64,000 bases of DNA from Eunapius fragilis. Its lineage: Eukaryota > Porifera > Demospongiae > Spongillida > Spongillidae. This document shows, piece by piece, positions 21,081 through 64,000 of the stretch. How positions within the stretch are numbered: the first letter of the stretch is position 1; every line of letters begins with the position of its first letter. The DNA is taken from NCBI GenBank assembly GCA_963681505.1, contig OY811972.1, positions 15,237,665 to 15,301,664 on the forward strand, in the 5' to 3' direction. Below the pieces are notes generated by a model. It did no database searches. It saw only the letters and a program-made list of their open reading frames with translations, and was not told the origin of the DNA. The translations under genes and the position numbers were made by a program.

Positions 21081-21184
21081 CTGTGTAAGAGGGGGTGTGA
21101 ATAACCAAATACTCTGTGTAACCGAGGGTGTGGCTACTGGTGAAAATTGATCGTGACACGATCTCAAATTAAGATTCATAAACG

Positions 21185-22102: not shown

Positions 22103-22269
22103 CAGTCATGCATAGGACTGTATGTCGCCGCATACTGAATACATGAGATTAACGTATTATGTATTCAGCTGCTTTCTGTCTCTTTGTACTGTATGTCCGT
22201 GTGTGCTATTTAGCTTGTATTTTTCTTCCGAGTATTATTAAAATAAAAATATGTATAGAGAATGTATGG

Positions 22270-22425
22270 ATATACAAATACGTACATTAATATTATTATT
22301 TATAATAATAGGGTGCAAGATACAAGAGAATACACAAATGGGAATAAATGCACATGCAGGATTATTTTATTATAATAATAATAATTATTATTATTTATTT
22401 TTTTCGCCATTATTATTATTATTAA
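22270..22425. repeat. TAA/TTA microsatellite cluster (empty retroelement target)
   Basis: TAATATTATTATTTATAATAATAGGG followed by GTGCAAGATACAAGAGAATA and, at 22363, more TTATTATAATAATAATAATT. In copy 2 the same flanks are split by retroelement insertions (57778-59590 and from 59653). Confidence 0.9.
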
Positions 22426-22427
22426 AA

Positions 22428-24578
22428 CATAACATTACAACATTAAACAGTAGCACGTATCAATAACATGAACAAAATGACATCACGTGGGAGTCCTAAA
22501 CTAAAGTTTTTAACCCTCTGGGGTCTGGGTGCCGACACAGGAAAGTAAGGCCCTGGCTGCGCAGCGAACCAAAGTGAGGTTCAGCCGTTGGTAAATGCTG
22601 ACCAAGGCTTTGGATTTGCTGCAATGTAGCTGTAAGGCCAGCCGAGCTGCTAAACGAGAGAAGGAGTCCCTGGCTTCTGTTCCCCAGCACCCATAGGTCT
22701 CGACGGCCAGTGGAATGCAAACCCACCCCAAGGCCCTGCACTTGGGGTCGTTGGAGATGTGTTTGCGCATCTCGGCCATCCGAGCTGCAGAACCACCAGT
22801 GACCTTCGCTTCAGGCAAAGGAATAGGGTTAAGCGGAGAGGTCACTGTGATGTCGAAAGCAGCTGGTTTGCCTGTGGACCAATTGGGCACCAGGTAGTCG
22901 GCTGGCCGGCTTCGGGAACCATCAGCCTCAGTCCCTCCGCCCACCTCGAGTTGACCACCCAGGCGAGCCCTGTGGCAGAATTGGGCAACGACATCTCGCA
23001 GGCTGTTGTGGCGCAGGACAGCGTCCCCACCTCTCCTGCACGTTAAGGCATGGTGACCAAGAGGGTCTAACTGGTGGTCAGGGCAATGAGGGTACCGAAG
23101 GTGAGGTGACGTGTCGACGCCCAGCCACCATTTGAGAGCCACCTGGAACTCGGCTGGGTCCATGTGCAGGTTGAGGCCCTTAGCTGGAATGACCGACAAC
23201 CAGGATGAAGCGTGGCAGGATGCGACTGAGAGCAGGCGAGCACGGTTGGCAGGGGTGGCAGCGAGGAACAGCTGGTCAAATTGGTGGTCTTCAATCCTGG
23301 CGGATAGGTCTTTTTGACGCATGGTTGAAGTCTGCAAAACTTCCATTGAGATGGAGCATGCAGGGGGGGACCAAGCTGTTGAAAATGGCAACAGTGTGTG
23401 CTGTGAACTCGTCAGGTGGGGTTGTGCATCCTGCCGTGTTAACAGAGGCCAGGAAGGCAGCCGAACAGTGCAATGCCAATTTGCGGAGTCCTAGGCCGCC
23501 CCGGCTAAGGCTCAGTTGGGCTTGCTGCCACACCGAGTCTGAGGCATCAATTGCCACACAGTCAGAGAAGTGACGGCGAACATCAGCGTCGAAAAGGGCC
23601 AGGCCGTCGGAAATGAGAGGTGTGGTGTGGACCGAGCCAGGTGAACAAACTTGCAAAAGGATGCGCAATGGCGCAGGAGGAGGAGGGCAATTTGCAGGTC
23701 GATGGAACCCACCTCCGTCAGCTGGGTCAATAACCTGGCTGCCCTGGCCCGTTTCTGAGCCATGAACTTGGCGCAAAAGATGATGTCGCCAACAGGGGCC
23801 CCTAGGATCTCCATGTTGGGTTCATTGAACCTCTTGATCTCTACTGGGAGGCCCTCTAGGTTGCTGCGGGAATACAGTTCACACTTGGCTGTGTTGATTC
23901 TTAGCCCCAGGGGAGGGCCTTCCAGTTGGATTAGGTGGATGGCGTGGTTGATCGCAGACTTCGGCCCAGCGAGGGTGCCGTCATCAAGGTACTAGCAATT
24001 GAATGTGAGCCCTGAGCATTCGGCAGCTCCTGCGATGGACTGGACAAGTTTGTGCAGCACCAAGGAAAATAGGAGGGGGCCCAGTGGGTCCCCCTGCTGG
24101 ACTCCCTGTTCGGAACCTAGTGTGCCCATGGGGTGCCACAAGGTAGGGTGTTGACCGTAACACCAGTAGACCCACTTGACGAGAAGCGGGAAGTGGGTTG
24201 CACATTCAGTTAGGAGGGCATTCCTAGAGACTTCATTGAAGGCATTGCTGAGGTCAATTTTGCAGACCACAAATTCATCATCCCCCCAGTGATCTGTTAG
24301 GCAGCGCCTAAAGTTGTGAATCAATTTCTCTGCCCCGGCTGGGCAGGCCACGCCAAGCTGGTGTGGGTCGAAAAACTCTGAAGCCTTCGCTCGCATCAGG
24401 ATACAGAGGCATTTCCCTGTCAATCGTCGTAAGGCTTCCCCTGCGGCGATTGGGCGTATATCTTGCGTGGCACCCTCCTTCTTCTTGTTCAAGGCTGTGA
24501 GAGAGCCGCCTGCCATGAACTTGGCGATCCCCGCTGGCGCATCACCAGCCACTAGGATGTTGATCACTGCCCTGAGGG
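22428..24578 (-). pseudogene. Non-LTR retroelement copy A: RT + CCHC + nuclease-like domain, truncated and frameshifted
   Basis: Read from 24567 leftwards: reverse transcriptase with KIDLSNAFNEV (motif A), QQGDPLGPLLF (motif B) and YLDDGTLAGPK (catalytic motif C), then a thumb/linker, then CPHCPDHQLDPLGHHALTC (CCHC-type finger), GGDAVLRHN, and RPADYLVPNW...AAFDITVTSPL, a PD-(D/E)XK-like pattern as in restriction-like endonuclease retrotransposons. The 5' part upstream of the RT fingers is missing. An in-frame TAG precedes YLDD (about 23993) and at least two frameshifts follow (about 23630 and 23350). TAA-type repeats flank both ends. The known R4/Dong clade has the same domain set and TAA targeting, so that clade is a reasonable comparison, not a proven assignment. 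Confidence 0.8.
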
Positions 24579-24579
24579 A

Positions 24580-24613
24580 TTATTATTATTATTTTAAAAT
24601 AATAATAATAATG
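24580..24613. repeat. ATT/AAT microsatellite between retroelement copies
   Basis: GATTATTATTATTATTTTAA followed by AATAATAATAATAATG, separating copy A from copy B. Confidence 0.9.
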
Positions 24614-24888
24614 ACAGTTACATGAATACACGAATATACAGCAGTAAGGTAATCAAATGCACCCTACTAGAGGTACTAGACAGGGACAAAACACATGGAG
24701 AGGATGGCTGTGGCATTGGCTCTAACTAGTATTAGGTTCAGCCTCCCATATAAGGCAGCTAGGACCTTAGCCTTAGCCCTGTTGGAGCTAGTTGCAAGGC
24801 GAGAAGCCAGAAGAGAAAAAGACTCCATTGCTTCTGTCCCCCAAGCACCATATGCCTCAACCACCATGGGGACGCAAACCCACCCATT
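24614..24888 (-). pseudogene. Retroelement copy B, 3' fragment
   Basis: C-terminal end of the same retroelement type (YGAWGTEAMESFSLLASRLA, then LYGRLNLILVRANATAILS) with its 3' tail against the TAA repeat. 5' truncated at about 24888, where it meets copy C head to head. Confidence 0.8.
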
Positions 24889-25292
24889 AATACCTCACCA
24901 CTCTGCTCTGTCATCTTGGGTGAATCATGTCACCAGGCTGGTGTGGCAGCCCTGGCAGCTGAGACCCACAAGCTCCACTCCAATGGACCCAAGTGCCAAG
25001 AGTTGGGCTGGTCCTGCATCCCATTGGCGGTGGAGACTTATGGCAATTGGGGCAAGCAGGCACATGATACCTTCTCCAGGCTGGCATCCTTCCTAGCCAT
25101 TCACCAGTCCTCCCCCAAGGCAGTAGTTGTGGCTGAAATGTATGGCCGGTGGAATGTGGTCCTGGTTCGGTCCATTGCTAGAGCCATCCTGGCCAGGGAG
25201 CTTCCACCCTCCTAACTTGCCATTAGTAGTTTAGTTATACTTAGTATATATGGTTGTATATTTTTTGATATACAACTTATTAATAATAATTA
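24889..25292 (+). pseudogene. Retroelement copy C, 3' fragment, opposite strand
   Basis: C-terminal nuclease region (HSNGPKCQELGWSCIPLAVE, then YGRWNVVLVRSIARAILA) to a stop at 25215, followed by an AT-rich tail ending ATTAATAATAATTAAAG. It belongs to a different subfamily from B, so the pair is two insertions rather than one inverted element. Confidence 0.8.
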
Positions 25293-25394
25293 AAGATACG
25301 AACAACAGAATACAGTTACAGCAGGATAAATGGACAAACACAATTACATTATTATAAGGATAACTAACTTACAATAGATGTCGCTAACAAACCT

Positions 25395-26175
25395 TATTAT
25401 TATTATTTTGATATCATTGAGTATGTACATTATTGAAAGAAATCTAAGCTACACAGTAAACAAACCACTAGGACGGAGAAGGTGAGGAGGCTAACAACCA
25501 GTTGCCAACGAACGGGACAACAAAGCTCTGGCATTCGCTCTGGCTAGGACCAGGTTTAACCTGCCATAGAGAGTAGAAGTGGCCTGGGACTTGCAACAAT
25601 TCGACCTAATTGTAAGACATGCAGCAAGTCGAGAAAAGTTGGTCTGTGCTTCAGGCCCCAAATAACCATAAACCTCGACCGCCAAAGGCACACACAAGCT
25701 CCGAGCACTGCTGGAATGTTTCCTGTTTTCAGCCACCTGAGCTGTTGACCCACTTGTCACACTCGCTTCATGTAGAGCAATTGGAGTAAGCGGTGATGTG
25801 ATGTCAAAGGTTGCAGGTTTCCCCGGCACCCAATTAGGAACAAGCACGTCGGCCGGCCTTGTACGTCGGGCATCATGTCCCAAACCACTTCCCACTTCCA
25901 TTTGGCCACCAATACCAGCTTGCCTACAAGATTCAAAAAAGCATCCCAAAGCCTATTGTGGCGAGAGACCACATCACCATTATAACGACAAGTTAGTGCA
26001 TGATGGCCAAAGGGATCTAATGGCAGAGTAAGACAACGAGGGCATTTCTCACCACTGAATAGGTCAATTCCAAGCCACCATTTTATTGCTGTTTGGTACT
26101 CTACAGATTCTAGATGGAGATTGAGACCTGGAGATGGCATGACTGAAAGCCAAGAAGCCGCATGGGGGGATGTTA
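25395..26175 (-). pseudogene. Retroelement copy D, 3' half
   Basis: From right to left: LNLHLESVEYQTAIKWWLG, CPRCLTLPLDPFGHHALTC finger, RPTCLFL (frame slips), FDIT(S)PLTPIALHEASV and RLNLVLARANARALLS. Same subfamily as 63140-64000. A short deletion removes part of the FDITVTSPL motif and shifts the frame. 3' tail lies in an ATTATTATTATT tract at 25395. Confidence 0.8.
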
Positions 26176-26199
26176 CTTTAAACCAAGGTAGACAAATAT

Positions 26200-31276: not shown

Positions 31277-31293
31277 CCCACTTCTGACACCAA
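31276..31293 (-). other. Primer-binding-site-like sequence
   Basis: Minus-strand TTGGTGTCAGAAGTGGGA directly adjoining the 5' LTR, as expected for the tRNA primer site of a gypsy element. The matching tRNA was not identified. Confidence 0.6.
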
Positions 31294-31416
31294 TGTAATA
31301 TAATCACATTAGAGCAGTATTACAGTCAGACTGAATAACAAAGCAATGTCTCACTTTCAATAGTTCTAATCATACAATATAATTGGCTAGTTAGCAACTA
31401 CAGTTAAATCATTACA
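31294..31416 (-). repeat. Gypsy 5' LTR
   Basis: 123 bp, TG...CA ends, pair of the LTR at 26921. Very short for a gypsy LTR. Confidence 0.9.
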
Positions 31417-33837: not shown

Positions 33838-34440
33838 TAATAATCAATATTACAATACATACAAGGGTACAATCTTAAACATAGCCTATAGTTAATGTTA
33901 ATTCAAAATACATCTGGAGAGGATGGCAGTGGCATTGGCCCTCACTAGATGGAGGTTGAGTCTGCCATAGATGTCTCTAAGTACAGCCGGCTTGGGCCTG
34001 CATGTGAGCGTGGCAAGCCGAGAAGCCAGCATCAACTGCTTCACTTCCCCATGCACCATAAGTCTCTGCTACCAGGGGAACACACAACCAGCCGAGTTCT
34101 TTGCATTTTGCATCATTGGCCCTGTGCTTTCTGCCTTCACTGGCAAGGGCAGCTGATCCTGCAGACACTCCCACTTCCATAAGGGTATGTGTATTAAGTG
34201 GAGAGGTTACAGAGATATCAAAGGCAGCTGTCTTGCCTGTTGTCCAGTTAGTCAACAGAAGGTCAGCAGGATGGGTGTGGCTATGATCGATCGGCTGTGA
34301 GGTATTGCCAGCTTCCACTTGGATGCCAAGATGGGCTCGGTGGCATGTTTCAGCCAGAACATCACGAAATGTGTTGTGTCATACCACCACATCACCACCA
34401 CGCTTTCAAGTGGTGGCATGATGTCCCAGAGGGTCAAGGG
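33838..34440 (-). pseudogene. Retroelement copy E, 3' fragment
   Basis: Reads (right to left) a GGDVVV-type segment, HPADLLLTNWTTGKTAAFDI, CKELGWLCVPLVAETYGAWG and a diverged RLNLHLVRANATAILS end. Frameshifted near 33990 and 34320. 3' tail against AATAATAATCAATATTAC. Confidence 0.75.
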
Positions 34441-34686
34441 CTATTAATCTTAACAACTGATTCGCGGTCCTGTGCGCGTGTTTGCTCCAAAGGTACAGTA
34501 TTTAGTGTATCTGATTAACTGCATTAATGTTCTATATAACCTAGCTTCTTTATGTATAAGTTAAGCCTTCAAAAAGTGGTCATTGTGCACACTTTGCGGA
34601 CATGAAGAACTTGATTTCCCGCAATGTAATAAAAATATATATTCTACCGGGTGTCTATGGAGAGCTGGGTACCATAACAACGCATA

Positions 34687-46514: not shown

Positions 46515-48806
46515 TAGCTTTGGCATGCTTTACGTAAAGTACAGGAAACTTTACACTTTTTACGTAAACTTTACTTTACACGTTTACGTAAAGTAGACAA
46601 AACAAACTCGGTTAATCAACAAAGGAGTGGTAGCAAGTGTACACATCATTTAGAACTCAACACTAGAGCTATAACTGTCAGCAATCACCACGTCACTATC
46701 ACTGTCACTATCACCTCCTCTTGAACTGGACTCATCACTGTCAGACAAAGATTCCTCCATCATAATTCTAGCAAAGTCAGCCTCTTTCTTTAACAAAGCC
46801 TCAATAGAAGCATTTGCATACAATGAAACCAGTTTATCAACTTTATCAGTATTCAAACGATTTCGACGCTTGGTGTGTATGAAATCATACACACTCCAGA
46901 TACGCTCACTAGCTGCAGATGATGTAGGAATAGCAAATAATCGTGAAGCAACTTTGAAAAGAATAGGAAACTTCTCTTTACCAATAGTGTTCCACCAAAC
47001 CTTTCCTGGGTAATTAATAATATTTTCCTTGGCAACTCCTGTCACATTTACAACACAATCAATGAAGGAACTTATTTCACTAACTACTGCTTCAGCATCT
47101 AAATTAGCATCAAGTGAAAGAACCTCTTTGTGATTGAGGATATATAACTTCAACTGATGCAATGTATCATCTTTGTCGTTGCCATACATATTCATCCCAC
47201 CACATGTATTTGGCTCAAGAAAATATGCAAATCCCATGGATTCAGTGTGAATGAACTGCCATCTAGAAAATGCTAACTCATAGCACTCTTCATCCACATC
47301 CTTCCACAAATTGAGGAGCTTTACAAAACACTTATACACTTCTGCAAGACTTGCTGAATTGGATTCAACAATACCAATTACCTCAGTAATAGGAGCTAAC
47401 TTCTGCTCTGCAATCATTGCACTGGCCCAGAAGTTATCATCACCAATCATATTACAAAATGTCTCTTTATCGTGGCCTTTAACCCTTGTAACAACAGCAT
47501 GAGTAGCAAGACTACAGAGCACAACATGATTATCTAGAACCCTGCGAAGACATGCATGCTGAGTGTACCACCTAGTTTCACAAGGATACACAAGGTTTCG
47601 TTTGTACTGAATGTCCTTATGCTGGAAATGAAACAATTGTAGTGCCCTAAACCTCTCTATAACAGCAGTCCTAGATCTTACAAAGTGTGTAATAAATCTG
47701 CACTTCTCTAGTATGCCACTACAAGCATCAGTATCACAGATATCCTTCACAAGTAAGTTAAAAACATGAGCAGCACAACCATTGCAAAAGATGTGTGGGT
47801 ACTCTGCTTCTAAGATATCCCAGGCAGCTTTCATGTTGGCAGTATTATCTGTGATTACTGCTGTCACTTTATTGACACCAACCACTGCAATAACCTCCTT
47901 AATAATCTTCGCAACATTATTTCCTGTTAGCTGGGTTTCTCCGGTTGAAATGGACTTAATAAAAACAGGCTTGTTCTTGAGGTTTGGAATGGACACTATA
48001 AAATTGACTATATGCTCTCTCCTAATATTCGACCACCCATCTGATATTAAAGCAACAACATTTGACTCTGCAATATACTCACCAATAACGGTCTTCTGCT
48101 TCTCAAATGCATTATCGAGAAGGCGTGTTGCGAGTACCTTACGAGAAGGTACCTTGTATGCAGGCCTAGCAACAGATAATAGATGTCTCAATGATGAACT
48201 GTCAGCTACATGAAATGGGATTGCTGTTTGGAAGAAGAAAGAAGCAAATGCCTCATCCAATCGCTGCTGTAATGCACTATCCATGTGGTCAACCCAAGCG
48301 GTTAATTTCCCGCGCGCGGTGACCTCCTCCGCGACTTCCAAGCCAGCACGTGCACGTCGTTTGGGTTCAGGGGTGCACAAAGAGCTGCTGGTGTGTGAAC
48401 AGGAGGGTTGATCATCGCTGCAGGACGGTCCTGGACCAGGCTGCTGGCTGCCATCAATAACAATAACGCTACAGTTTTCCTTGGCTGTAGGCAGCATAGA
48501 CTTTGTTTCAGAAGCGACATTAGCGCAGCCTCTAAGATGAGATGCCCAGCGTTCAATACTGTCCGAATTTACTACTTTTCCACACTTCTTGCATTCGTGC
48601 TCTTTGGAGCCATGATGAGTAAACGAATCACGAGCAACTTTCTTCTGTAGAGCGCTTAGTGGCATCACTGGCATTGACCTGAAGTATTATTTATCCGAAT
48701 AATACCGTATAGATCCACTTCACGTTAAGCGAATAAATGTGCTTTAAAACTGTACGTAAAGTTTACGTAAAAAAAACTTTACGTACAGTGTAAAGTGCCA
48801 ACAGTA
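46515..48806 (-). mobile_element. hAT transposon nested in Ginger, 2.29 kb
   Basis: Direct repeat CCGGTCGG at 46507-46514 and 48807-48814 gives the 8-bp duplication expected of hAT. Imperfect ends TAGCTTTGGCA and (inverted) TACTGTTGGCA, then GTAAAG-rich subterminal repeats (TTTACGTAAAGT type) at both ends. The single gene inside is intact. Confidence 0.85.
46650..48674 (-). CDS. hAT transposase, 674 aa, intact
   Basis: Uninterrupted ORF. Residues 28-50 form a BED-type zinc finger (CKKC...HLRGC). The RNase-H-like core has SDGWSNIRR (Asp 212) and ITDNTANMKAAW (Asp 276), then FCNGCAAHVFNLLVKDI, as in DUF659-containing hAT transposases. The C-terminal dimerisation region includes WWNTIGKEKFPILFKVASRL and TSSAASERIWSVYDF with the likely catalytic Glu 590. 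An acidic Ser/Asp tail ends the protein. The enzyme would cut at the element ends and reinsert it in the nucleus. The length is normal for the family. With an intact ORF, 8-bp duplication and terminal repeats, this copy may be recently active, but activity is inferred. Confidence 0.92.
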   Translation of the reverse strand: MPVMPLSALQKKVARDSFTHHGSKEHECKKCGKVVNSDSIERWASHLRGCANVASETKSMLPTAKENCSVIVIDGSQQPGPGPSCSDDQPSCSHTSSSLCTPEPKRRARAGLEVAEEVTARGKLTAWVDHMDSALQQRLDEAFASFFFQTAIPFHVADSSSLRHLLSVARPAYKVPSRKVLATRLLDNAFEKQKTVIGEYIAESNVVALISDGWSNIRREHIVNFIVSIPNLKNKPVFIKSISTGETQLTGNNVAKIIKEVIAVVGVNKVTAVITDNTANMKAAWDILEAEYPHIFCNGCAAHVFNLLVKDICDTDACSGILEKCRFITHFVRSRTAVIERFRALQLFHFQHKDIQYKRNLVYPCETRWYTQHACLRRVLDNHVVLCSLATHAVVTRVKGHDKETFCNMIGDDNFWASAMIAEQKLAPITEVIGIVESNSASLAEVYKCFVKLLNLWKDVDEECYELAFSRWQFIHTESMGFAYFLEPNTCGGMNMYGNDKDDTLHQLKLYILNHKEVLSLDANLDAEAVVSEISSFIDCVVNVTGVAKENIINYPGKVWWNTIGKEKFPILFKVASRLFAIPTSSAASERIWSVYDFIHTKRRNRLNTDKVDKLVSLYANASIEALLKKEADFARIMMEESLSDSDESSSRGGDSDSDSDVVIADSYSSSVEF

Positions 48807-52277: not shown

Positions 52278-52522
52278 ATGTGTCTTGCGATTATATATAC
52301 ACGTGGGGCCGGGTGGTCCTTAGACTGCATGGAATGAAAAGATTAAATTATATAGACATAAAAACATTTCAATTCATTTAGGGGATCGAGTTCATAGCCA
52401 TGCAATATAATCAAAGAATACAATTATCGTGCATATTCGTGTTGATGAAACGCCCAATGCAAGTCTCGCGTGAAATCACACGACCTTTCACAACAGCTGA
52501 AGTTTTAGACGGCCGTTTTACC

Positions 52523-53398
52523 ATGAATCGATCCATCTGGGAAGTGGACTTCGCATTCACTGCACTCAACGGTGTCGCAGGACTCGTGTGCCTGCTGGTG
52601 GCCATCTTGGTGTTGGCTCTAAAGCTCCATAAAACGCTCGTCTACCGCCTGGCTCTCTACCAGGTGCTGTCAGCGTTAGCCTTTGCAACTGTGGAAGCAT
52701 TTCAAATTATCTTTATCAGTTATGACATCAGCACAGTTGTCTACGGCCAAACGTGCAACACTATTGGATGGCTCAGTTTTTACACCAGATGGGCGAAATT
52801 ACTCTTCACTATGTGGGTAACCTTCCATCTATTCTGCTTTGCATTACTCCAAAAGAACCTGAAGAAGCTTGAAGTTTTGTACGTTGTGACCTCACTACTC
52901 GTACCCGCTCCGATAGCCTCCGTCCCGCTGGTAACACGCACATACGGAGTTAGCTCATTCCATAGTTATTGCTATATTTACAGCCATAATGGCAACCCTC
53001 ACCTACTTGATTTAACTGAAAGGCTTGTTCTCTGGGACGTTCCAGCGATGGTTATCTTAATGATATCGTCTGCTGCCATGGTCATCATAATTATCACCAT
53101 TGCTAAACGACTGTGTCAAAAAATGGAATATGAACCAATCACCAAAGGTGACACTTTTTGGAAAGCTCTCAAAGAACTCCTCCCACTGGCTGCCTTTCCT
53201 ATATTTTTCTTCATCTTCCAAGTACCTGGGCTCATGTATGACCTATTTAGCGGCAAAGTTGAAAGGGAAGCGGCGCTTGGCACTCCTGTCATGTGCACTT
53301 CGCTGTGGAGCTTGTCTTCAGGTGTCACACTCATCATCCACTTATTAGTGATGGCTTGCATTCACCGGGGAAGACGAAGGAACAGATTGCCATACTGA
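52523..53398 (+). CDS. 7TM receptor A2, 291 aa, single exon
   Basis: Near-identical twin of A1: changes are I to T (TM4 region), S to N (second loop, HNGNPH) and S to R (third extracellular loop, KVEREA). All seven helices, the paired Cys and the WKALKELLPLAAFP motif are kept. A longer in-frame start at 52400 differs from A1 by a 9-base deletion, which keeps the frame but supports the inner ATG as the conserved start. Plasma-membrane GPCR, ligand unknown. The Ginger insertion ends about 420 bp upstream, within what would be its promoter side. Confidence 0.85.
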   Translation: MNRSIWEVDFAFTALNGVAGLVCLLVAILVLALKLHKTLVYRLALYQVLSALAFATVEAFQIIFISYDISTVVYGQTCNTIGWLSFYTRWAKLLFTMWVTFHLFCFALLQKNLKKLEVLYVVTSLLVPAPIASVPLVTRTYGVSSFHSYCYIYSHNGNPHLLDLTERLVLWDVPAMVILMISSAAMVIIIITIAKRLCQKMEYEPITKGDTFWKALKELLPLAAFPIFFFIFQVPGLMYDLFSGKVEREAALGTPVMCTSLWSLSSGVTLIIHLLVMACIHRGRRRNRLPY

Positions 53399-54279
53399 GA
53401 GAAAAAAACGAACAATATACATGACCTCTTTACTTCTTACATACAGTATATATACTGCATGTTGCGTGCACCAAATACCCCGTGCACACCAAATACATTG
53501 GCCGCTTATTATGTATCCTTGAATGCACGTACGCATCTTACCTCAGCACGCATGGATTCTTTACGTCGACGTAACGCTTGAAGAACTATGACGGCTGCAT
53601 GAACTGCATGTCGTAAGGCAAAGACATCTATACATACAGCACTTCGATCACCACGTAGTTATTAGTTGCATGCATGTGTTATTGTACACCGTTATTTGAC
53701 AGTCGACAAAACATATCATTGGCATAAAGCATGATTTAAAAACAGTGCATTAGCCCATGAAGAGATAATTTGTGCAATCAATTAGCAACCTCGAGCACTC
53801 GAGCTCATGCCTGAGCTTGTGCATGCACGCGTGCGCGCGTTAATGCCTACGCTATTAGTATGACATTTATCGTGTTCGGTATAGAGCCGCCAGCCGTGCC
53901 TAGAAAAGGCACCTATAATATGCACAAGGTTTTCAAGTTTTTTATTTATTATTATTCAATACTCGAAGCTAGATAGAGATGCCTGTATATAGTCCTCTCT
54001 ACAATTTCTTTCTTCCGCACTTCACGTTTCTTGCGTGGAAATTGGTTTGGTCGCAGAATTACATTACAATGGCGTCGGAACAAATTGGTGAATTTGGGGG
54101 TCGCGGTGTGTGAGTGGGGGGGTCATCCTAATTTCGATTAATTCGCTTGTACGGTAACAATATATATGGATAGAGCCGGGCTATATAAATACGGCGCTTG
54201 AAGTTGAAATCGGATGAGGTTGTTACGGTAAAATGGGGGTCGGAAGCCTATACGTCTGCCCCCGAAATAATGGGCACCT

Positions 54280-54490
54280 CTGATGATCAAAACCGATCGA
54301 TGAGGAACCCATCGCGCAAGCCGGCTACGATGTACCCAGCAAAGAACCTCATCCGGGTGCCCGCCCAGGACTGAAACCCATGCACTTCTCCCATCTCAAC
54401 GGACACCTCTGCATGATCCACACACATGCACTGATGTATGCGCCATCCATCCATGTAGCTATATATGCAATATCCTGCCGCAAGCATACC
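54280..54490 (-). repeat. Possible tRNA-derived SINE remnant, second copy
   Basis: Counterpart of 17380-17590 with the same B-box-like GGGTTTCAGTCCTGG on the minus strand. Confidence 0.3.
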
Positions 54491-54670
54491 TGCGTACGTA
54501 AGGTATAAGGTTTACGTAAACTATATATACAAGAAGGTACTCATACATGAACTTGTACCCAAGCTTTGACCCCCGCGGAATGTAATGATTTCCATCGCTT
54601 TGACACGCGTGCCATCAGTAAAAAAGTTCGTACAATCATTGGACTTCCGTGGTGCTGCCTCACTAAAGTA

Positions 54671-55612
54671 ATGAATCGATCCGTCTTGCTCTGGGATGTG
54701 GACCTTGCATTCACCATTATCAACGGTGTCGCGGTATTCGTATGTCTACTGGCAGCCATCTTGGTGTTTGCACTAAAGCGGCACAAAAAAGTCGTCTACC
54801 GACTAGCTCTCTACCAGGTGTTGGCTTCGTTGTCTTTTGCAACGGTGGAAACACTGCAAATCGTGTTCATCAATTATGAATTAAATCCGAAGGTCTACGG
54901 TCGCCTGTGTGCCGCTATTGGATGGTTTAACATGTACACGCGATGGGTGAAGCTACTCTTCACGATGTGGGTGACCGTCCATCTCTTCTGTTTCGGAGTG
55001 CTTCGCAAGAACCTCGATAGGTTTGAAGTGTTGTACGTTGTGACCTCATTACTCGTACCCGCTCCGATGGCTACAATACCATTGACTACAAACAACTACA
55101 GAGTTAGTTCGTTTCATAGTTATTGCTACATTTACAATTCCAGCAATAGTTCTGAAATTGAGCTGATAGAAAAGGTCGTTCTGTGGGACGCTCCTTCAAT
55201 GGTCATCCTTATGGCAGTCTCCGTTGCTATGGTTGCACTGGTGATAATAGTCATTAAACTACTGTGGCTAAGGTCAAAGTACGAACCAATTACCTACAAT
55301 GACACGTTTTGTAAAGCCATTAAAGAGCTCCTCCCACTGGCTGCCTTCCCAATACTGTTTTTCGTCTTCATGATACCTGTGCTCTGGGCTCATGTTTACG
55401 CAGCTACAGTTCCCACGCCTGACGAGGCGTACATGACGCCGGCTTCGTTGTCCACCTCGCTGTGGAGCGTGGCCTCAGGGGTCACCCTCATTGCTCACTT
55501 TTCTGCGGCGAGATGTTTCTCAAAGAGGAAGACCGACGCTGAAACGAGCCATACGCAAACACAACTACAACCCTCGTTCGGTGCGATTGTACCGAATCGT
55601 ATATTGTACTGA
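54671..55612 (+). CDS. 7TM receptor B2, 313 aa, single exon
   Basis: Start MNRSVLLWDVDLAFTIING aligns with receptor A; an upstream in-frame ATG at 54566 would add 35 residues that are not conserved in A. Seven helices, a Cys near helix 3 (GRLCAAIGWF), HSYCYIYNSSNSSEI with glycosylation sites, and FCKAIKELLPLAAFP. The C-terminal tail is longer than in A and is Thr/Gln-rich (SHTQTQLQPS). The paralog B1 at 17772 is frameshifted, so in this haplotype B2 is the only open copy. Likely plasma-membrane GPCR; ligand and coupling unknown. Confidence 0.85.
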   Translation: MNRSVLLWDVDLAFTIINGVAVFVCLLAAILVFALKRHKKVVYRLALYQVLASLSFATVETLQIVFINYELNPKVYGRLCAAIGWFNMYTRWVKLLFTMWVTVHLFCFGVLRKNLDRFEVLYVVTSLLVPAPMATIPLTTNNYRVSSFHSYCYIYNSSNSSEIELIEKVVLWDAPSMVILMAVSVAMVALVIIVIKLLWLRSKYEPITYNDTFCKAIKELLPLAAFPILFFVFMIPVLWAHVYAATVPTPDEAYMTPASLSTSLWSVASGVTLIAHFSAARCFSKRKTDAETSHTQTQLQPSFGAIVPNRILY

Positions 55613-55629
55613 TACTGCATCGCATTAAG

Positions 55630-55720
55630 AATTTTTTTTTTCTTTAATTTTTTTTTTTTTTTTTTACATTACGATATTATTAAATACATACAATATACAG
55701 AGATCATACATAGATCTCTG
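55630..55720. repeat. Poly-T/AT tract
   Basis: T-rich run followed by AT repeats, present where copy 1 has the 18730-20155 spacer. Confidence 0.7.
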
Positions 55721-56394
55721 GTAGTAGCAAGACAGTTGACGTGCGCATGCGTGCCAGCGTGCGCGCCCAGACAGTACAACGTGGAAGCTTTCTGTAGTCA
55801 ACACCAGGGGTAGAAACAGGATATTTCCTTTGGAACGGTACAAGCAGTCATCATAGGCCAGCAGTTGGGCGTGGTGGAAGATCCGAGCAGCACTGAACCA
55901 CTCGAACCAAATGCCAGCGAAACAGAAACCTTCTTCGTCACCGTGACCATCTAGCTAGGGGATAGCTTAAGGCACCACTCTCATGGGTTGACTGCTCTGC
56001 TGACATGTGCCCGTACATCCCTGCACTGACCAAGGAAAAGAGGTTGGCTTGCATGTTGTTTACTGATGCATGTTTTCTAATTTCATAGTGTTGATCGCGC
56101 CTTAAGTTCATTCATAGCCCATAGGTGTAGGCATATATGGCCAATGAATCTATATGGTTAAGTTCCTATACATTAGATCACCAACAAACAACATAACACA
56201 TATATAGACAACTAGTAAAATATTGTATAGTAGCCACGTACCCAGACCCACACTCGCTGCCGATGGATTACACACAAACAACAATATCCGATAGACACCT
56301 CATTCAGAGGCTCTCTTATATTAAGCTAGGAAACTGAAGTGTCCCCATATTTTTGGTGTTCAATCGCGGGTTCAAAGCGATGTAGATTACAGGA

Positions 56395-56562
56395 TGGGGT
56401 CAATTTCACAACTACCGTTAACCAAATTCAGGACCGTAGGCAGATCGGTTACCAGGGAAACCCGTAAAATAGCTCGTAATTTTTACGGGTTTCCTGCATG
56501 GTCATGAGCCATTACGTTAGTCTGCGGACGTCAGGAGAGTTATTTCTGACGTAGATCACACT
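56395..56562. promoter_or_regulatory. Single hairpin repeat upstream of receptor C2
   Basis: One unit of the repeat at 20770-21080: GGAAACCCGTAAAA, 10-base loop, TTTTTACGGGTTTCC. About 100 bp before the C2 start. Confidence 0.5.
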
Positions 56563-56665
56563 TGTAAGAGAGGGTGTGAATAACCAAATACTCTATGTAT
56601 AACCGAGGGTGTGGCTGCTGGTGAAAATTGATCGTGACACGATCTCAAATTAAGACTCAGAAACG

Positions 56666-57595
56666 ATGAGTCAATCCAACGACACGGTGATCCTTCCGTT
56701 CACAGCAATCAACTGTCTCGCAGTTATCGTATGTCTAGTGGCGGCCATTTTGGTTTTTGCCCTGAAGTTGCACAAAAAGGTCGTCTACCGCCTGGCTCTC
56801 TACCAGGTGTTGGCTTCGTTGTCTTTTGCAACGGTGGAAACACTGCAAGTGATTTTCAGAAATTATGACCTAAACCCCGAAGTCTATGATCGACTGTGTG
56901 CCGCCGCTATGGGATGGTTCGTCATATACACACGATGGGTGAAGCTACTCTTCACGATGTGGGTGACTGTCCATATCTTCTGTTTCGGAGTACTTCGAAA
57001 GAACCTCGATAGGTTTGAAGTGTTGTACGTTGTGACCTCACTACTCGTCCCCGTTCCAATTGCGGCTATACCAGCGATTACTAACAACTACAGTCTTGGT
57101 CCGTTTCATAGTTATTGCTACATTTACAATTCCAACAATAGTAATCAGACGACAGAACTGATCGAAAGGCTGATTCTTTGGGACGTTCCAGCCACTTGTA
57201 TCCTTATCGCCTCCACCGTTGCCCTAGGTCTCTTGGTGATTAAAATAGTGCGTGTGAAAGTATTCATGGAAGCAATAATTGGCGGGGAATGGTTTTGGAA
57301 GGCGCTCAAAGAGCTCCTACCACTGGCTGCCTTTCCAGCCTTGTTCTTCATCTTCATAGTACCAACTATCATATATCATTTTTATGTGGCCATGAACCCC
57401 ATAGCCGCTAACAGCGACACAAGGCTCATCATCACGGTTACCACTTGCATATCCCTGTTGAGCTTGTCCTCCGGTGCTACCCTCATCCTTCACTTATCTT
57501 TGGTTAGCAGATGTTGTGCACAGAAGGCCCATGGGGCTTTGCGCCGTGGGTCGTATTCTGAGATTAGGGAGAGCCGCTTTGACAGTCATGCATAG
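56666..57595 (+). CDS. 7TM receptor C2, 309 aa, single exon
   Basis: Open throughout. Differs from C1 at about a dozen positions, several in the N-terminus (VILPFTAIN versus VIISFTVIN) and the TM5-TM6 loop (FMEAIIGGEWFW versus FMETIIGGKWFW). The C-terminus ends SRFDSHA because of a one-base difference from C1. Same family hallmarks: YRLALYQVL, HSYCYIYNSN, WKALKELLPLAAFP. Plasma-membrane GPCR, ligand unknown. Confidence 0.85.
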   Translation: MSQSNDTVILPFTAINCLAVIVCLVAAILVFALKLHKKVVYRLALYQVLASLSFATVETLQVIFRNYDLNPEVYDRLCAAAMGWFVIYTRWVKLLFTMWVTVHIFCFGVLRKNLDRFEVLYVVTSLLVPVPIAAIPAITNNYSLGPFHSYCYIYNSNNSNQTTELIERLILWDVPATCILIASTVALGLLVIKIVRVKVFMEAIIGGEWFWKALKELLPLAAFPALFFIFIVPTIIYHFYVAMNPIAANSDTRLIITVTTCISLLSLSSGATLILHLSLVSRCCAQKAHGALRRGSYSEIRESRFDSHA

Positions 57596-57777
57596 GACTG
57601 TATGTCGCCGCGTACTGAATACAGTACATACACATGCAGATTATGTATTCAGCTGCTTTCTGTCTCTTTGTACTGTATGTCCATGTGTGCTATTTAACTT
57701 GTTTTTTTCTTCCGAGTATTATTAAAATAATAATATGTTTAGGGAATGTATGGATATACAAATATGTACATTAATAA

Positions 57778-59590
57778 TATATGACCAATGCCTTTAATTT
57801 GGTTTCTCGTCAAGCTATCCTGTCAGAGTGTGCTAAGCACTTTCCTGAACTTCTCCCTTGGGTCAGCTGGTGCTACGGACAGCATCCCCTTCTTTGGCAC
57901 TCACTAGGTTGCTTGTCATCAGAATCAGGTGTCCAACAAGGGGATCCACTTGGACCCATGCTATTTTCACTAGTCTTAAACATCCTAGTAATGAAAATAG
58001 CAAGAGACAGTGCCTGCTCAAACATTCCTTTCCATGCCTGGTACTTGGACGATGGGGCTGTGGCTGGCCCAAGGTCTTCCTTATGCAGGATATTGACTCT
58101 GCTCCAGAAGGAAGGCCCTGCTCTGGGTATTATCATCAACCTGCCTAAGTGTGAGGTGTTTAGCCGACATGGGCTTGATATGTTCCCATTGAACATTAAG
58201 AAATCTGACAAGCCCAATATGGAGATTCTTGGGATTCCCATCGGTGACCTGGATTTTTGTTCCTCCTTCATCTCCAAAAAACACTCTAAGGCCAAGATCC
58301 TATTGTCACAACTTGAGGAGGTTGGAGTTGTCGACCCTCAGGTTGCTTTAATCCTTCTTCGTCTCTGTGGATCCATATGCAAACTGGTACATCTGGCAAT
58401 GGCAACTCCATCAACTCTTACATGTAAAGCCTTTGCTCTAATTGATGATGACATTAGAATGTCCTTCTGTCGATGCATTGATGTTGACACATCTGATACA
58501 TCTTGGCAGCAGGCTCAGCTTAGCCCAAGTAGAGGGGGCCTTGGGTTTCAGCCATTATCTCGCCACTCATCAGCAGCATTCATCTCCTCTTTATGCTCAT
58601 CTGGCATTGGTATGCATTCATCTCCCCACCTGACTCAAGCAGTAGATATCTTTAACAGCTTGGTCTTGCCTGCAGATGTAGTCAGTGTCGAGTCGCTCCT
58701 TACCACACCAGTCTCTCAAAAATCCCTTTCTGGTAAGATAGATGACCATGTCGTCAACTTACTGCTGAACTCATCTTCAGTAGCAGACAAAGCACGTCTT
58801 TTGTCAGTTTCCTCTCCCCATGCAGCATCCTGGCTTTCAGTTGTGCCCTCCGAGAGCTTAGGGCTTCACATGGATCCTCCTGTTTTCCAGGTAGCCATCA
58901 AATGGTGGCTTGGCCATGATGTTTCAGAGGGCTCACAATGTGCACTATGCCCAGGTAGTACACTTGACCACCTTGGCCACCATGCAGTTACCTGCAAGTA
59001 TGGTGGTGATGTGGTAACTCGGCATAACATGATTAGGGACATCCTGGTGGAGACATGTCGTCGGGCTCACATAGGGGTTAAGGTGGAAGTCGGCAACAAC
59101 CTAAGTAGAGACCACAGTAAGACCCGTCCAGCTGACATACTTCTTCCTAACTGGTTTTTGGGCAGAACAGCAGCATTAGATGTGTCATCACCTCACCGCT
59201 AAACCCTGTTAATTTTTTGGAAGCGGAAGTGTCAGCCACAGCTGCTGCCCAGGCCACTGAGTCTAGGAAACACCACGCCAATGACCCCAAATGCTCAGAT
59301 CTAGGATGGGTATGTGTCCCTATGGTAGTTGAAACATATGGAGCTTGGGGAAAAGAAGCCATTGCCATTATCTCCTCTGTAGCCTCTAGACTTGCCACTA
59401 CCATGTGTCGGCCAAAGTCCATCGTACTTAATGAGATCTATGGCCGACTGAATCTCCACCTGGTCAGGGCTAATGCTACAGCTATCCTCTCTAGGATAGC
59501 TCGTGTACTGTAGAGCTGTACTTTGTATTTAATCAGTGTTGTTTCTGTATATTCATGTCATTTAATAATCAATAAAAAATAATACCATTA
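57778..59590 (+). mobile_element. Non-LTR retroelement copy F inserted in TAA repeat
   Basis: Starts exactly at the RT motif A (TNAFNLVSR) after TTAATAATAT and ends with a 3' UTR (AGAGCTGTACTTTGTATTTA) and ATTAATAATAATAGGG. The empty site is preserved in copy 1 at 22290-22310, so the insertion boundary is known to within the TAA tract. 5' truncated. Nearly identical 3' sequence at 62588-63150 shows recent amplification. Confidence 0.88.
57781..59513 (+). pseudogene. Retroelement F ORF: RT, CCHC finger, nuclease-like domain
   Basis: 473 open codons cover RT motif B (QQGDPLGPMLF), motif C (WYLDDGAVAGPR), the thumb, a CALCPGSTLDHLGHHAVTC finger, GGDVVTRHNMIRD and RPADILLPNW. A one-base deletion at about 59188 (GTGTCATC against GTGTCCATC at 62748) shifts the frame inside the ALDVSITSPL nuclease motif. 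The remainder continues at 59190-59513 (CSDLGWVCVPMVVETYGAWG, IYGRLNLHLVRANATAILS). Apart from 5' truncation and this indel, it is the best preserved copy here. Known relatives: restriction-like-endonuclease non-LTR clades. Confidence 0.85.
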
Positions 59591-59591
59591 A

Positions 59592-59652
59592 TAATAATAG
59601 GGTGCAAGATACAAGAGAATACACAAATGGGAATAAATGCACATACAGGATT
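59592..59652. repeat. Flanking sequence shared with 22303-22362
   Basis: AGGGTGCAAGATACAAGAGA and following bases match copy 1 almost exactly; they are the right flank of copy F and the left flank of the next element. Confidence 0.85.
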
Positions 59653-60093
59653 ATTGCATCACTCTTTGGCCATACCTAAACTTTTGTACCTGCTTAGAGC
59701 GTCACCTTGTTTTCTCTCATCCAGTTTAAAGATCTATGATGATGAACTCAGAGCAACAGTCTGTAGTTCTTTTTATATCCAACTGGCTGAAAGTGACCCC
59801 TCTTGGACACAATCCACTGTGCCTGTGCGTCATGGTGGGCTTGGAATTCGGAGCGTTGTGCAGCTGGCACCTTCTGCCGTCTTGGCTTCAGCTGCTGCCT
59901 CCTCCAGACTTGCTCACCTAATGTTCTGCCAGCAAATATGCAACCACCCCAGCTCAGCTATGTGGATGAGGCTCTTGCTGCATGGTCCCACGGGTGTCAA
60001 GAACAACCCCCCACTGATGCTGCTGCTTATCATCAGAAGACCTGGGATACAATCAGAGTATCTTCAATTGCAGATACACTATTAACAGACTCA
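59653..60093 (+). pseudogene. Second RT family, thumb fragment (5' piece)
   Basis: Reads SLAIPKLLYLLRASPCFLSS, SWTQSTVPVRHGGLGIRSVV, QLAPSAVLASAAASSRLAHL. Belongs to a different RT lineage from copies A-F; its C-terminal part resumes at 61503. Starts at a TAA-type junction and is interrupted by the minus-strand copy K. Confidence 0.65.
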
Positions 60094-60905
60094 TCTGATC
60101 CTAGTTTCAGCAGACAGAGCTGCTACACCTGCAATTCTACTTGAGTCTTTCAAGGAGACTGGAGTGAGGGGAGAAGTGACTGTGATGTCTAGGGCAGCAG
60201 GTTGGCCTCTCTCCCAACCCTCCACAAGGACATCAGCTGGACGGAGTGATTGATGTCACGACACATACCATGACCTGCTTCCACCCTGACAGACAGGTGT
60301 GCCTTGCGACATAAATCTGCAATGATGTCACGCAATTTGTTGTGTCTGATGGCTGTGTCACCTCCATGTCTACAGGACACAGCATGGTGACTAAGAGAGT
60401 CAAGAGCGACCCCTGGGCAAAATGGGCACACTGAGGCAACTGAAGTGTCCAGACCCAGCCACCATCTGACAGCAGTTTGGAATTCCGGTGAGTGTAGATG
60501 CAGATTTAGGCCAACAGAGGGAGCAGCTGAGAGCCACGCACTGGCATGGGGGGCCGAAGTTGATAATAGCCAAGCTTTATTCGCTGGAGAGGAGGACATC
60601 AAAGTGAATCAAAGAGATGTCTGTCCAACTTCTGGGACAAGGATCGCTGGCGAGGCTGATCAGCAAGAACTGTCTCGATAGTAACTGCATCAGAATGTGA
60701 GACCTGACTGTTGAATGTGATTAAAGATTGCTGAAGATGGAGGTTATTGGTATTGCCTACACCTGAGGCTGAAAATGATGCCAGGAATGCTGAGCTAGAA
60801 TGGAGTGCAAAGGAGTGGAGTCCAAGCCCGCCAAAGGAGAGGCTTGTTGCCAGGCCACATCGTGACATCTGCAGCAAGACAGGCTGAGAAGCAGGATCAG
60901 TTATT
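60094..60905 (-). pseudogene. Retroelement copy K, middle fragment
   Basis: Right to left: GLGLHSFALHSSSAFLASF, LNLHLHSPEFQTAVRWWLG, CPFCPGVALDSLSHHAVSC finger, GGDTAIRHNKLRD, and in another frame the RPAD...ALDITVTSPLTPV nuclease motif, ending at LSAETR. It lacks the 3' terminus, which is unusual for a retrotransposed copy and indicates later breakage. Right end meets TTATTATTATTATTATCG. Confidence 0.75.
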
Positions 60906-61039
60906 ATTATTATTATCGTTCTTACTGCTGTATATTTGTGTATTATTATATATCAGTAATAATAAAGTTCTCTATGTTTTATTTAGACATAAGGTAGTTA
61001 ATTCTACAAATCTAGGAATACAATAGGAGAAACAACATG

Positions 61040-61449
61040 CATGAATTATTAATAAATCATGCTACAGTTCAATAAACTTTAATATGGGAGCCACCTGGAA
61101 AGGATTGCTGTCGCATTTGCCCTCACCAGATGCAAGTTGAGCCTGCTATACAGTTCAGACAGCACAACTGACTTTGGTTTGCCCGATAGGATGGCAAGAC
61201 GGGAGGCAAGCATCTTAAATGAGTCCATGGCTTCCTTTCTCCAAGCACCATAGGACTCCGTGACCAGAGGTATACAACACCAGCCCAAAGCATTGCATTT
61301 GGGGTCATTCTCAGTATGCTTTCGCTCTTCAGTGGACAAGGCGGCTGCCCCAGCTGACAATTCCGCTACTGAAACAATTTTGGGGTTTAGCGGTGATGTC
61401 ACTGAAATATCAAAGGCAGCTGGTTTGCCAAGGGCCCAGTTGGGTTTTA

Positions 61450-61450
<1 letters not shown>
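61040..61450 (-). pseudogene. Retroelement copy L, 3' fragment
   Basis: KPNWALGKPAAFDISVTSPL, NALGWCCIPLVTESYGAW, LYSRLNLHLVRANATAILS to a stop at 61079. 5' end abuts the (ATT)n at 61449-61492. Confidence 0.8.
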
Positions 61451-61489
<39 letters not shown>

Positions 61490-61492: not shown

Positions 61493-61502
61493 AAGTACAC
61501 AA

Positions 61503-62210
61503 ATGCAACCTACCACAGATCATCATTTTGACCTTTCTGCTACCGTGTTTCGTGATGCTTTAACAGTCAGATATCATAGACCCCGTTTGAAGATGCCAGC
61601 AACATGTGATGGATGTGGTGCAACCTTTAGTTATGAACATGCCCTGGACTGTAAGAAAGGGGGTCTCATTACCAGATGTCACAATGAAGTAAGAGACACT
61701 CTTGGTGACCTGTCATCTATTGTTTATAAGGACATTATCAGGGAACCAGTGATACAAGAGGCATGTGAAATAGCAGGCGAACCCTCCTTAATAGCTGACC
61801 TTGGTGTACGAGGGGTTTGGCAGCCTCAGGCTCAAGCACTTTTTGATGTACGTGTGATAGACACTGATGCACCCTCTCATGTTCAAAGAAATGTGGCAGC
61901 AATCCTAGCATCAGCTCAAACAGAAAAGTACAACAATGCAGCTATTGCTAGATGAGCCTCATTTACACCATTTGTGGTATCAGTTGATGGTGCCTTGGGA
62001 TGTGAAGCAACCAACTATCTTAAAAACCTCTCTGAGCACATCTGCATGAAATGGGGAATGGCCTATGGAGAAGTGATGGGATGGCTGAGGGCCAGTTTGT
62101 CATTTGAAATCATTAGAGCCACTGATTTGTGTCTCCGGGGATCTCGTATCAGATGGAGGAGTGTTATGGATATGGCTGATGGAATAGGACTTCCATATAT
62201 AGTAGAATAG
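61503..62210 (+). pseudogene. Second RT family, C-terminal part
   Basis: QPTTDHHFDLSATVFRDAL, finger CDGCGATFSYEHALDC, KGGLITRCHNEVRD, ADLGVRGVWQPQAQALFDVR with DTDAPSHV (PD-(D/E)XK-like), then a stop at 61953 and the in-frame continuation ASFTPFVVSVDGALG to RATDLCLRGSRIRW and a final stop at 62210. Order and frame fit as the continuation of 59653-60093. One in-frame TGA, otherwise open. Confidence 0.75.
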
Positions 62211-62399: not shown

Positions 62400-62585
62400 T
62401 CAAATGTATTCCTGATGATGGCAGGAAAGTCTGCACAAAATAGCCCTCACATTTGGCCTAACTAAATGGAGATTGAGCCGGCCATACAGTTCAGACAGAA
62501 CCATAGATTTGGGTCTGGATGAAGACGTGGCTAGGCGAGAGGCCAACATGGAAAACTCCTCCAAAGCCTCCTTCCCCAGGATTAT
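62400..62585 (-). pseudogene. Retroelement copy M, 3' fragment
   Basis: GKEALEEFSMLASRLATSSS, LYGRLNLHLVRPNVRAILC. Joined head to head with copy I at GGATTATTATAAC. Confidence 0.8.
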
Positions 62586-62587
62586 TA

Positions 62588-63150
62588 TAACATGATTAGG
62601 GATATCCTGGTGGAGACATGTCGTCGGGCTCACATAGGGGTTAAGGTGGAAGTCGGCAACAACCTAAGTAGAGACCACAGTAAGACCCGTCCAGCTGACA
62701 TACTTCTTCCTAACTGGTTTTTGGGCAGAACAGCAGCATTAGATGTGTCCATCACCTCACCACTAAACCCTGTTAATTTGTTGGAAGCGGGAGTGTCGGC
62801 CACAGCTGCTGCCCAGGCCACTGAGTCTAGGAAACACCACGCCAATGACCCCAAATGCTCAGATCTAGGATGGGTATGTGTCCCTATGGTAGTTGAAACA
62901 TATGGAGCTTGGGGAAAAGAAGCCACTGCCATTATCTCCTCTGTAGCCTCTAGACTTGCCACTACCATGTGTCGGCCAAAGTCCATCGTACTTAATGAGA
63001 TCTATGGCCGACTGAATCTCCACCTGGTCAGGGCTAATGCTACAGCTATCCTCTCTAGGATAGCTCGTGTACTGTAGAGCTGTACTTTGTATTTAATCAG
63101 TGTTGTTTCTGTATATTCATGTTATTTAATATAATAATTATTATTATTTT
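62588..63150 (+). pseudogene. Retroelement copy I, 3' fragment
   Basis: Open 161 codons from NMIRDILVETCRRAHIGVKV through RPADILLPNWFLGRTAALDV, SITSPLNPVNLLEAG to the stop at 63077, then the same 3' UTR as copy F. About 98% identical to F and without its frameshift. Confidence 0.88.
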
Positions 63151-64000
63151 TATTATTTTGATTTTATTGAATATGTACATTATTGATGTGTATAATTATT
63201 AATACAAGATATCTAAGCTACACAGTAAACAAGCCACTAGGACGGAGAAGGTGAGGAGGCTAACAGCCAGTTGCCAACGAACGGGACAACAAAGCTCTGG
63301 CATTCGCTCTGACTAGGACCAGGTTTAACCTGCCATAGAGAGCAGAAGTGGCCTGGGACTTGCAACAATTCGACATAATTGCAAGACACGCAGCAAGTTG
63401 AGAAAAGTTGGTATGTGCTTCAGGCCCCCAACAACCATAAACCTTGACTGCCAAAGGCACACACAAGCTCCGAGCACTTTGCATCATTGCTGGAATGTTT
63501 CTAATTTTCAGCCACCTGGGCTGTTGACCCACTTGTCACACTCGCTTCATGTAGAGCAATTGGAGTAAGCGGTGATGTGACAGTTATGTCAAAGGCTGCA
63601 GGTTTCTCCAGCACCCAATTAGGAACAAGCACGTCAGCTGACCTTGTACATCGGGCATCATGTCCCAAACCACTTCCCACTTCCATTTGGCCACCAATAC
63701 CAGCTTGCCTACAAGATTCAAAAAAAGCATCCCGAAGCCTATTGTGGTGAGAGACCACATCACCATTGTACCGACAAGTTAGTGCATGATGGCCAAAGGG
63801 ATCTAATGACAGAGTAAGGCAACGAGGGCATTTCTCCCCACTGAATAGGTCAATTCCAAGCCACCATTTTATTGCTGTTCGGAACTCTACAGATTCTAGA
63901 TGGAGGTTGAGACCTGGAGATGGCATGACTGAAAGTCAAGAAGTTGCATGAGGGGATGTGACTGATAGTAGCCGCGCCCTATTTAGCAGTAAAGAGGACT
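63150..64000 (-). pseudogene. Retroelement copy J, 3' half, runs off the window
   Basis: LNLHLESVEFRTAIKWWLG, CPRCLTLSLDPFGHHALTC finger, GGQMEVGSGLGHDARCTRSA, FDITVTSPLTPIALHEASV, then a frameshift at about 63530 and CVPLAVKVYGCWG to RLNLVLVRANARALLS. Same subfamily as copy D. The tail is in ATTATTATTATTTTTATTAT. Confidence 0.82.

Follow-up and report, generated by a model that had tools for sequence, protein, structure and literature searches.

Does the retroelement in this locus seek out TAA-rich DNA as its landing site, or does the TAA around it have another origin? We addressed this question for an insertion in a window of 64,000 nucleotides (the whole stretch of DNA that was analysed), which lies on contig C2 of the searched genome (219 Mb, 24 contigs). 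How LINEs with a restriction-like endonuclease (REL-type LINEs, the R2 group) choose their targets is understood only in part. Within this genome, related families are unlike each other in the N-terminal module as well as at the junctions, which makes the part of the protein that aims the element directly testable.

Element F and its insertion site

Element F is a non-LTR retrotransposon copy in the second copy of a duplicated block (Table 1). Its relatives at genomic loci L002-L006, L011 and L012, found by searching the genome with the window protein, show 81-96% protein identity, and because the similarity to them starts only at 57779 the F copy is 5'-truncated, a feature absent from the original prediction. 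In the open frame of F the domain RVT_1 was significant by Pfam (E 4.3e-9), and the C-terminal part of the element matched in a different frame. The original prediction had named a reverse transcriptase (RT), a CCHC finger and a PD-(D/E)XK-like domain; the first was confirmed by this match, while the CCHC knuckle and the REL motif are present as patterns only.

The original prediction also held that the duplicated block retains an empty site with an uninterrupted repeat tract, and the empty site was confirmed. In block copy 1 the sequence reads GTACATTAATATTATTATTTATAATAATAGGGTGCAAG, and in copy 2 equal flanks are parted by F. The corresponding block pairs in BLAST were 20922-22296 against 56400-57780 (94.5%) and 22289-22366 against 59578-59655 (93.6%). 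The tract in copy 1 is indeed uninterrupted, but it is short and imperfect, and "long microsatellite" is the wrong description of it. As read from the sequence, the 10 bases CATTAATAAT on both sides of F are likely a target duplication. The DNA to the right of the F site is a relic 3' end from a different family of the superfamily, and it recurs at six further places (seven loci, of which two overlap). Since this right flank is an older relic pointing in the opposite direction, the insertion of F took place in a TAA tract next to an older tail.

Table 1. Features of element F, its insertion site and other superfamily copies in the window (positions of the whole stretch).
Feature	Position	Strand	Basis
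Paralogous uninterrupted site CATTAATATTATTATTTATAATAATA, pre-insertion type	22285..22310	+	sequence and BLAST
Relic 3' end of another superfamily family, tail facing the F site	22312..22366	-	DNA matches L070, L032, L018, L008, L103, L057/L098
Superfamily copy, broken frames; 3' end toward ATTATT/TAA tract at about 22367-22425	22540..24885	-	match search
Superfamily copy, C-terminal part	24892..25212	+	match search
Superfamily copy, C-terminal part	25497..26182	-	match search
Superfamily copy, C-terminal part	33904..34477	-	match search
Likely target duplication, left copy, CATTAATAAT	57769..57778	+	read by eye
F open frame, 474 aa, mid-RT through REL motif; frame breaks ahead of the C-terminal end	57778..59202	+	translation
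Retroelement F, 5'-truncated non-LTR retrotransposon copy including 3' tail	57779..59585	+	alignment with relatives
RT active-site motif YLDDG	58042..58056	+	read from sequence/translation
CCHC knuckle CALCPGSTLDHLGHHAVTC, CX2CX9HX4C	58939..58995	+	pattern by reading only; equal pattern in 6/7 full-length proteins
REL (PD-(D/E)XK-like) motif RPADILLPNWFLGRTAALDV	59125..59184	+	pattern by reading only; present in 7/7 full-length proteins
Variable AT/TAA-rich 3' tail, past the conserved end ...TATTCATG	59558..59585	+	comparison of copies
Likely target duplication, right copy, CATTAATAAT	59586..59595	+	read by eye
Copy-2 counterpart of the relic 3' end at 22312-22366	59597..59655	-	DNA matches
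Superfamily copy; (TTA)14 at 61447-61488 = (TAA)14 on the copy's 5' side	60100..61444	-	match search
Superfamily copy, C-terminal part	62427..62579	-	match search
Second F-family copy, 98.5% over 545 b, C-terminal part and 3' end	62586..63131	+	match search
Superfamily copy, DNA 90% to copy at 25394-26177	63266..63998	-	match search

Other elements and genes in the window

Stacked superfamily copies were seen at both block copies. The detectable right edge of the block duplication, 22366 / 59655, lies at an ATTATT tract; recombination at TAA or later insertions could account for this edge. A second parallel insertion hotspot at 22366/59655, with different fillings and similar right-hand copies (25394-26177 and 63144-63963), was considered and dropped. 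In the sequence past the window, homology was seen to stop with that right-hand element, and a single ancestral site for 22366/59655 is therefore not shown.

Pieces resembling a second RT/REL-type family, CKKGGLITRCHNEVRD, lie at 59664-60250 and 61494-62123 (forward strand); with the cut-offs applied, Pfam recognised nothing in their frames. The piece at 61494 starts directly past the (TTA)14 tract. On the reverse strand, a 678-aa open frame at 46650-48686 is a hAT-like transposase by Pfam (DUF659, 4e-27; hAT dimerisation domain, 2e-11), and pieces of an LTR retrotransposon were found at 27085-31303, with RNase H and integrase domains significant and the remainder assigned by eye. A tandemly duplicated receptor-like membrane protein family occupies 15454-22102 and 52382-57595 (forward strand). 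The two members checked (15454-16467 and 56654-57595) had no Pfam match.

Proteins and relationships of the superfamily

When the genome was searched with the window protein, 90 matches were scored out of 7124 first-look candidates. Ten longer stretches were taken, seven with a full-length frame of 1148-1390 aa (start codon chosen by us) and three shorter. The full-length proteins follow the plan N-terminal cysteine cluster, Ser/Pro-rich stretch, C2H2-like motifs, RT, linker, CCHC and REL motif. Identified by pattern, the cluster of nine or ten cysteines is present in one or two copies in 6/7 of them, and C2H2-like motifs as well as the REL motif RPAD...D are found in all seven. The CCHC of the form CX2CX9HX4C occurs in six; L100 has no CCHC. 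Family B (L092) is without the cysteine cluster and has one extra C2H2-like motif. The N-terminus of the F family lies outside the sequence seen; the nearest of the seven full-length proteins, L096, carries the cluster.

Searched against solved structures, an 8-row profile gave R2 as the best match (9nl3 3e-10, 9dou 4e-10, 8gh6 2.2e-8; R2 chains from 3e-10 to 3.9e-5), followed by LINE-1 structures from 1.8e-4 on. The RT is of LINE type and, among solved structures, nearest to R2. A single-protein search for RT relatives returned only matches with E above 0.5. The REL motif is collinear with PD...DVTV of R2 in an alignment stretch that is not significant. Used by itself, the C-terminal profile matched no R2 in PDB and no endonuclease in Pfam. 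Structure predictions from the window proteins reached a mean pLDDT of 39 and 35, which made the models unusable. A tree of 33 RT rows, built from copies of this genome only and rooted at the midpoint, placed B in the half that also contains the cysteine-cluster families A, C, D, E and H (100/99), with no finer placement inside it. The window protein had no match in plasmids or viral contigs, and the family profile had no confirmed relative in viral contigs or prokaryote genome contigs. The full-length copies (L071, L072, L079-L083, L086-L090, L121-L140) start nearly at the ATG, with a leader of at most about 25 b and hardly any 5' UTR.

TAA runs at the junctions

A junction was scored when a perfect 9-base (TAA)3 run in coding-strand orientation lay within 75 b of it, or within 100 b for full-length starts. 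For F, 20 of the 64 places with an exact 3' end were sampled, hand-picked at about every third (allowing up to 2 mismatches there are 123 places). Of these 20 copies, 18 could be followed to the 5' end, while L105 and L120 extend past the fetched stretch. The A sample comprised 3' ends at 16/16 places and 5' ends in 6 of 8 newly fetched copies. For B, 3' ends were sampled at 14/15 places (one inverted neighbour excluded), and the ten 5' ends came from six truncated copies, three full-length starts and L077; L142 and L146-L148, whose 5' ends were not cleanly delimited, were excluded from the 5' count. Full-length starts with the cysteine cluster were sampled at 33/35 places.

At the 5' side a run was present in 8/18 F copies, 4/6 A copies and 17/33 full-length starts, against a background of about 1% (1.1% of 75-b pieces drawn at random from the window, 0.3% outside element zones). 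At the 3' side the counts were 12/20 for F and 12/16 for A. Family B had no run at the 5' side (0/10) and two at the 3' side (2/14; 5/14 with TAA or TTA). Runs in the opposite orientation were rare in the 5' flanks (F 1/18, A 0/6, full-length 3/33), which gives 29 TAA versus 4 TTA runs. When counted per 75 b moving upstream, F gave 8, 2, 1, 0, 0, 0, 0, 0 and 0 of 18; the TAA signal of the F family is confined to the junction and fades beyond 75 b.

Counts of this kind might result from a loose preference for AT-rich DNA, in which TAA runs would serve as abundant AT-rich microhomology for priming and TAA itself would go unrecognised. The nearest 25 b of the flanks are 78-93% A+T in every set, B included, the junctions of B are AT-rich without TAA at the 5' side, and sequences other than TAA served as targets too (TTTTTAAAAAT in L108, for example), all of which fits this explanation. 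However, 300 dinucleotide shuffles gave 5' means of only 1.2 for F, 0.7 for A and 2.0 for full-length starts, with maxima of 4, 4 and 6, far fewer than the 8 and 17 runs observed for F and full-length starts; for A the maximum equals the observed 4 in a set of 6, so that A alone is not beyond shuffling. The strand bias of 29 to 4 also speaks against this explanation, and we regard a preference for AT-rich DNA alone as rather unlikely.

The specificity for TAA microsatellites, as originally predicted, was found in part: the junctions, 5' flanks included, carry an excess of TAA, but a run in coding-strand orientation was missing from 10/18 F 5' flanks and 16/33 full-length starts. The TAA preference is real yet incomplete, with about half of the copies lacking a (TAA)3 run on their 5' side.

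The families with the cysteine cluster differed from B. Together, A and the full-length starts had a 5' run in 21/39 cases, versus 0/10 for B (p = 0.003), and with starts judged by eye added the counts were 22/40 for cysteine-cluster families versus 1/16 for B-type copies (p = 0.0008); copies within a family are not independent, and both p values therefore overstate the contrast, which leans mainly on one family. Among the starts judged by eye, the near-identical L163 and L164 were counted once and L162 and L168, in which no start was seen, were excluded. The B-type copy L165 has TAA at its start.

Target and tail

An element cannot encode its 5' flanks, and the 5' excess of TAA is thus not element-encoded. 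The 3' tails are AT/TAA-rich and vary among copies. The longest stretch shared by both flanks was better than all mismatched pairs in 5/18 F, 0/6 A and 1/6 B copies. It contains TAA in L104 and L118 (14 b each) and is non-TAA in L107 (9 b), L108 (11 b), L112 (8 b) and L143 (12 b, family B). The duplications of the clearest copies measure 9-14 b, and L104, L108, L118 and L143 have 17-30 b of tail between the conserved 3' end and the duplication. L108 has a TAA-rich tail on the non-TAA target TTTTTAAAAAT. We concluded that TAA is favoured as target and can also be added as tail. The TAA tracts proving to be element tails had been named as a refutation of targeting; this is true in part, since some of the 3' TAA is tail and not target, as in L108. 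The non-TAA duplications of L107, L108 and L143 count against the explanation by TAA targeting.

TAA runs across the genome

(TAA)8 occurs at 757 positions of the genome, overlaps counted. Among 100 places listed (contig C1 together with C2 up to 12.85 Mb) there were 45 distinct runs, and 22 of these lay within 5 kb of an element place, versus 1.9% of random points; the list of element places was partial and hand-typed, and several runs share one element and are hence not independent. The longer TAA tracts are concentrated near elements, and copies occur nested at TAA runs. Sixteen of the other 23 runs were read. Superfamily coding was found near three of them by protein search and near two more by DNA match (L176, L185), eight matched other fetched loci (at least two of these, L177 and L179, through a simple TACA repeat among the hits listed), and three had no match to any fetched element. 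A pattern that required a C ahead of (TAA)n, found at 15 places, proved biased and overly restrictive, and plain (TAA)8 was used instead.

Two further sequences accompany TAA runs. A repeat with GGCAAGTAATGGCAT adjoins them in L172, L180, L183, L184, L007, L013, L037, L051 and L112 and is possibly the end of another element. In L040 and L173 a 143-b sequence beginning CGGTAGCGGTGACTG follows the TAA run, 98.6% alike in the two loci while the left sides differ; it is perhaps the start of another TAA-associated element.

In the I factor, TAA tails are made during reverse transcription. By analogy the TAA runs here could mainly be such tails, and 5' TAA would mark new copies that landed by chance in older ones. 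The variable TAA-rich tails agree with this, as does the higher frequency of TAA at the 3' than at the 5' side of F (12/20 vs 8/18), and a second superfamily copy was found near the 3' end in 4/8 A (within 320 b) and 4/20 F copies (within 160 b), compared with 0/4 in B. But to land in tails at such a rate would be a preference in itself. Moreover, superfamily coding within 320 b upstream was found in only 3/18 F copies, a search that short tails would escape, and the three read (TAA)8 runs that match no fetched element also speak against tails as the main source. An origin of the signal mainly from tails appears improbable.

The neighbouring copies, tandem or tail-to-tail and linked by TAA, could also have been arranged by template jumping or by recombination between TAA runs, the TAA joints then being a record of recombination instead of insertion sites; the position of the right edge of the block duplication at the ATTATT tract is in line with this. 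Simple jumping, however, does not yield neighbours of different families that often face each other, as seen here, and most sampled F copies have no detectable superfamily coding alongside. We consider such an origin of the joints very improbable.

Proposed mechanism

In our interpretation, which draws on sequence comparison, the superfamily probably consists of restriction-like-endonuclease LINEs that insert by target-primed reverse transcription and favour TAA-rich DNA with TAA on the coding strand. The endonuclease would nick within or next to TAA runs, and the freed 3' end may then pair with the element RNA at its AAU-rich end and prime synthesis. Additional TAA would join at the 3' joint, and an insertion could thus leave a new TAA run as a landing pad for the next copy. 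In the most speculative part of the model, the N-terminal cysteine cluster, perhaps together with the C2H2-like motifs, would read the AT-rich target, and the missing cluster of family B would accompany the loss of TAA preference.

A wider version, which we put forward tentatively and hold to be doubtful as a whole, is that a CXC-like cluster was gained as an aiming part that reads AT-rich minor grooves and directs insertion to TAA runs, that it was lost together with the aim in B, and that TAA tails self-seed targets and so shape the placement of the microsatellite. This would give a retroelement a concrete means to disperse a microsatellite across a genome and later to insert into it again. 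If self-seeding is true, later copies can pile up at the same TAA spots.

Comparison with known systems

From its domain content and TAA placement the element had been predicted to be of R4/Dong type. According to PMC7998251, Dong has a single ORF with RT and REL endonuclease and inserts into (TAA)n in Darwinula as well as in the majority of insects, molluscs and cnidarians; TAA repeats also appear in PMC3774820. The superfamily resembles R4/Dong in its single ORF with RT and REL motif, and its own preference for TAA is strong but not exclusive. The N-terminus of Dong is described in PMC7998251 as a diverged Myb-like domain without zinc fingers, whereas here a cysteine cluster (6/7) and C2H2-like motifs (7/7) are found. 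In two full-length proteins Pfam recognised RVT_1 alone at E up to 5, and no Myb domain; the published Myb-like domain of Dong needed HHpred. Dong and R4 carry an HDV-like ribozyme at the 5' end (PMC3774820), and no HDV-like family was among the 8 Rfam matches (E up to 0.1) in 14 sources, mostly 5' regions. Judged by architecture against these published descriptions, membership in R4/Dong is not supported; the RT tree comprises copies of this genome only.

With R2 the superfamily shares its best solved RT relatives, the order finger-RT-CCHC-REL and the collinear REL motif, whose alignment stretch is not significant. The target of R2 is 28S rDNA, whereas the junctions sampled in this genome consist of TAA or otherwise AT-rich DNA that varies between copies. 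The CCHC spacing given for REL-type LINEs in PMC5678591, CX2-3CX7-8HX4C, was found in none of the seven full-length proteins, six of which have CX2CX9HX4C and one (L100) no CCHC. The HERO clade and the Togen families are similar in that these are REL-type LINEs with some microsatellite-specific families, but the target of Togen is (TG)n instead of TAA (PMC4640811).

The cysteine cluster, which had no Pfam or PDB match, resembles the CXC domain of Tesmin, LIN54 and MSL2 in its nine or ten cysteines within about 35 residues, ending in CxN, but one cysteine is displaced and one gap is shorter. According to PMC4974476, the CXC of LIN54 binds TTYRAA in the minor groove. The CXC consensus given in PMC3447885, CX[C/H]X2-13CX4-7CXCX5-60CX2-4CX1-2CX2-15CXN, matched 0/8 domain copies; CXC membership was rejected, and the resemblance serves as a lead. 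A relaxed pattern fits 8/8 copies; it was written after the copies had been seen and is therefore no test of membership.

In a literature search that mainly covered papers outside subscription journals, we found no paper joining sponge, non-LTR retrotransposon and restriction-like endonuclease, and none joining a restriction-like-endonuclease retrotransposon with an N-terminal CXC, which does not make the family an undescribed one. Targeting of (TAA)n is already known, in Dong. New here are the CXC-like N-terminus, its absence in the family without TAA preference and the possible self-seeding of targets.
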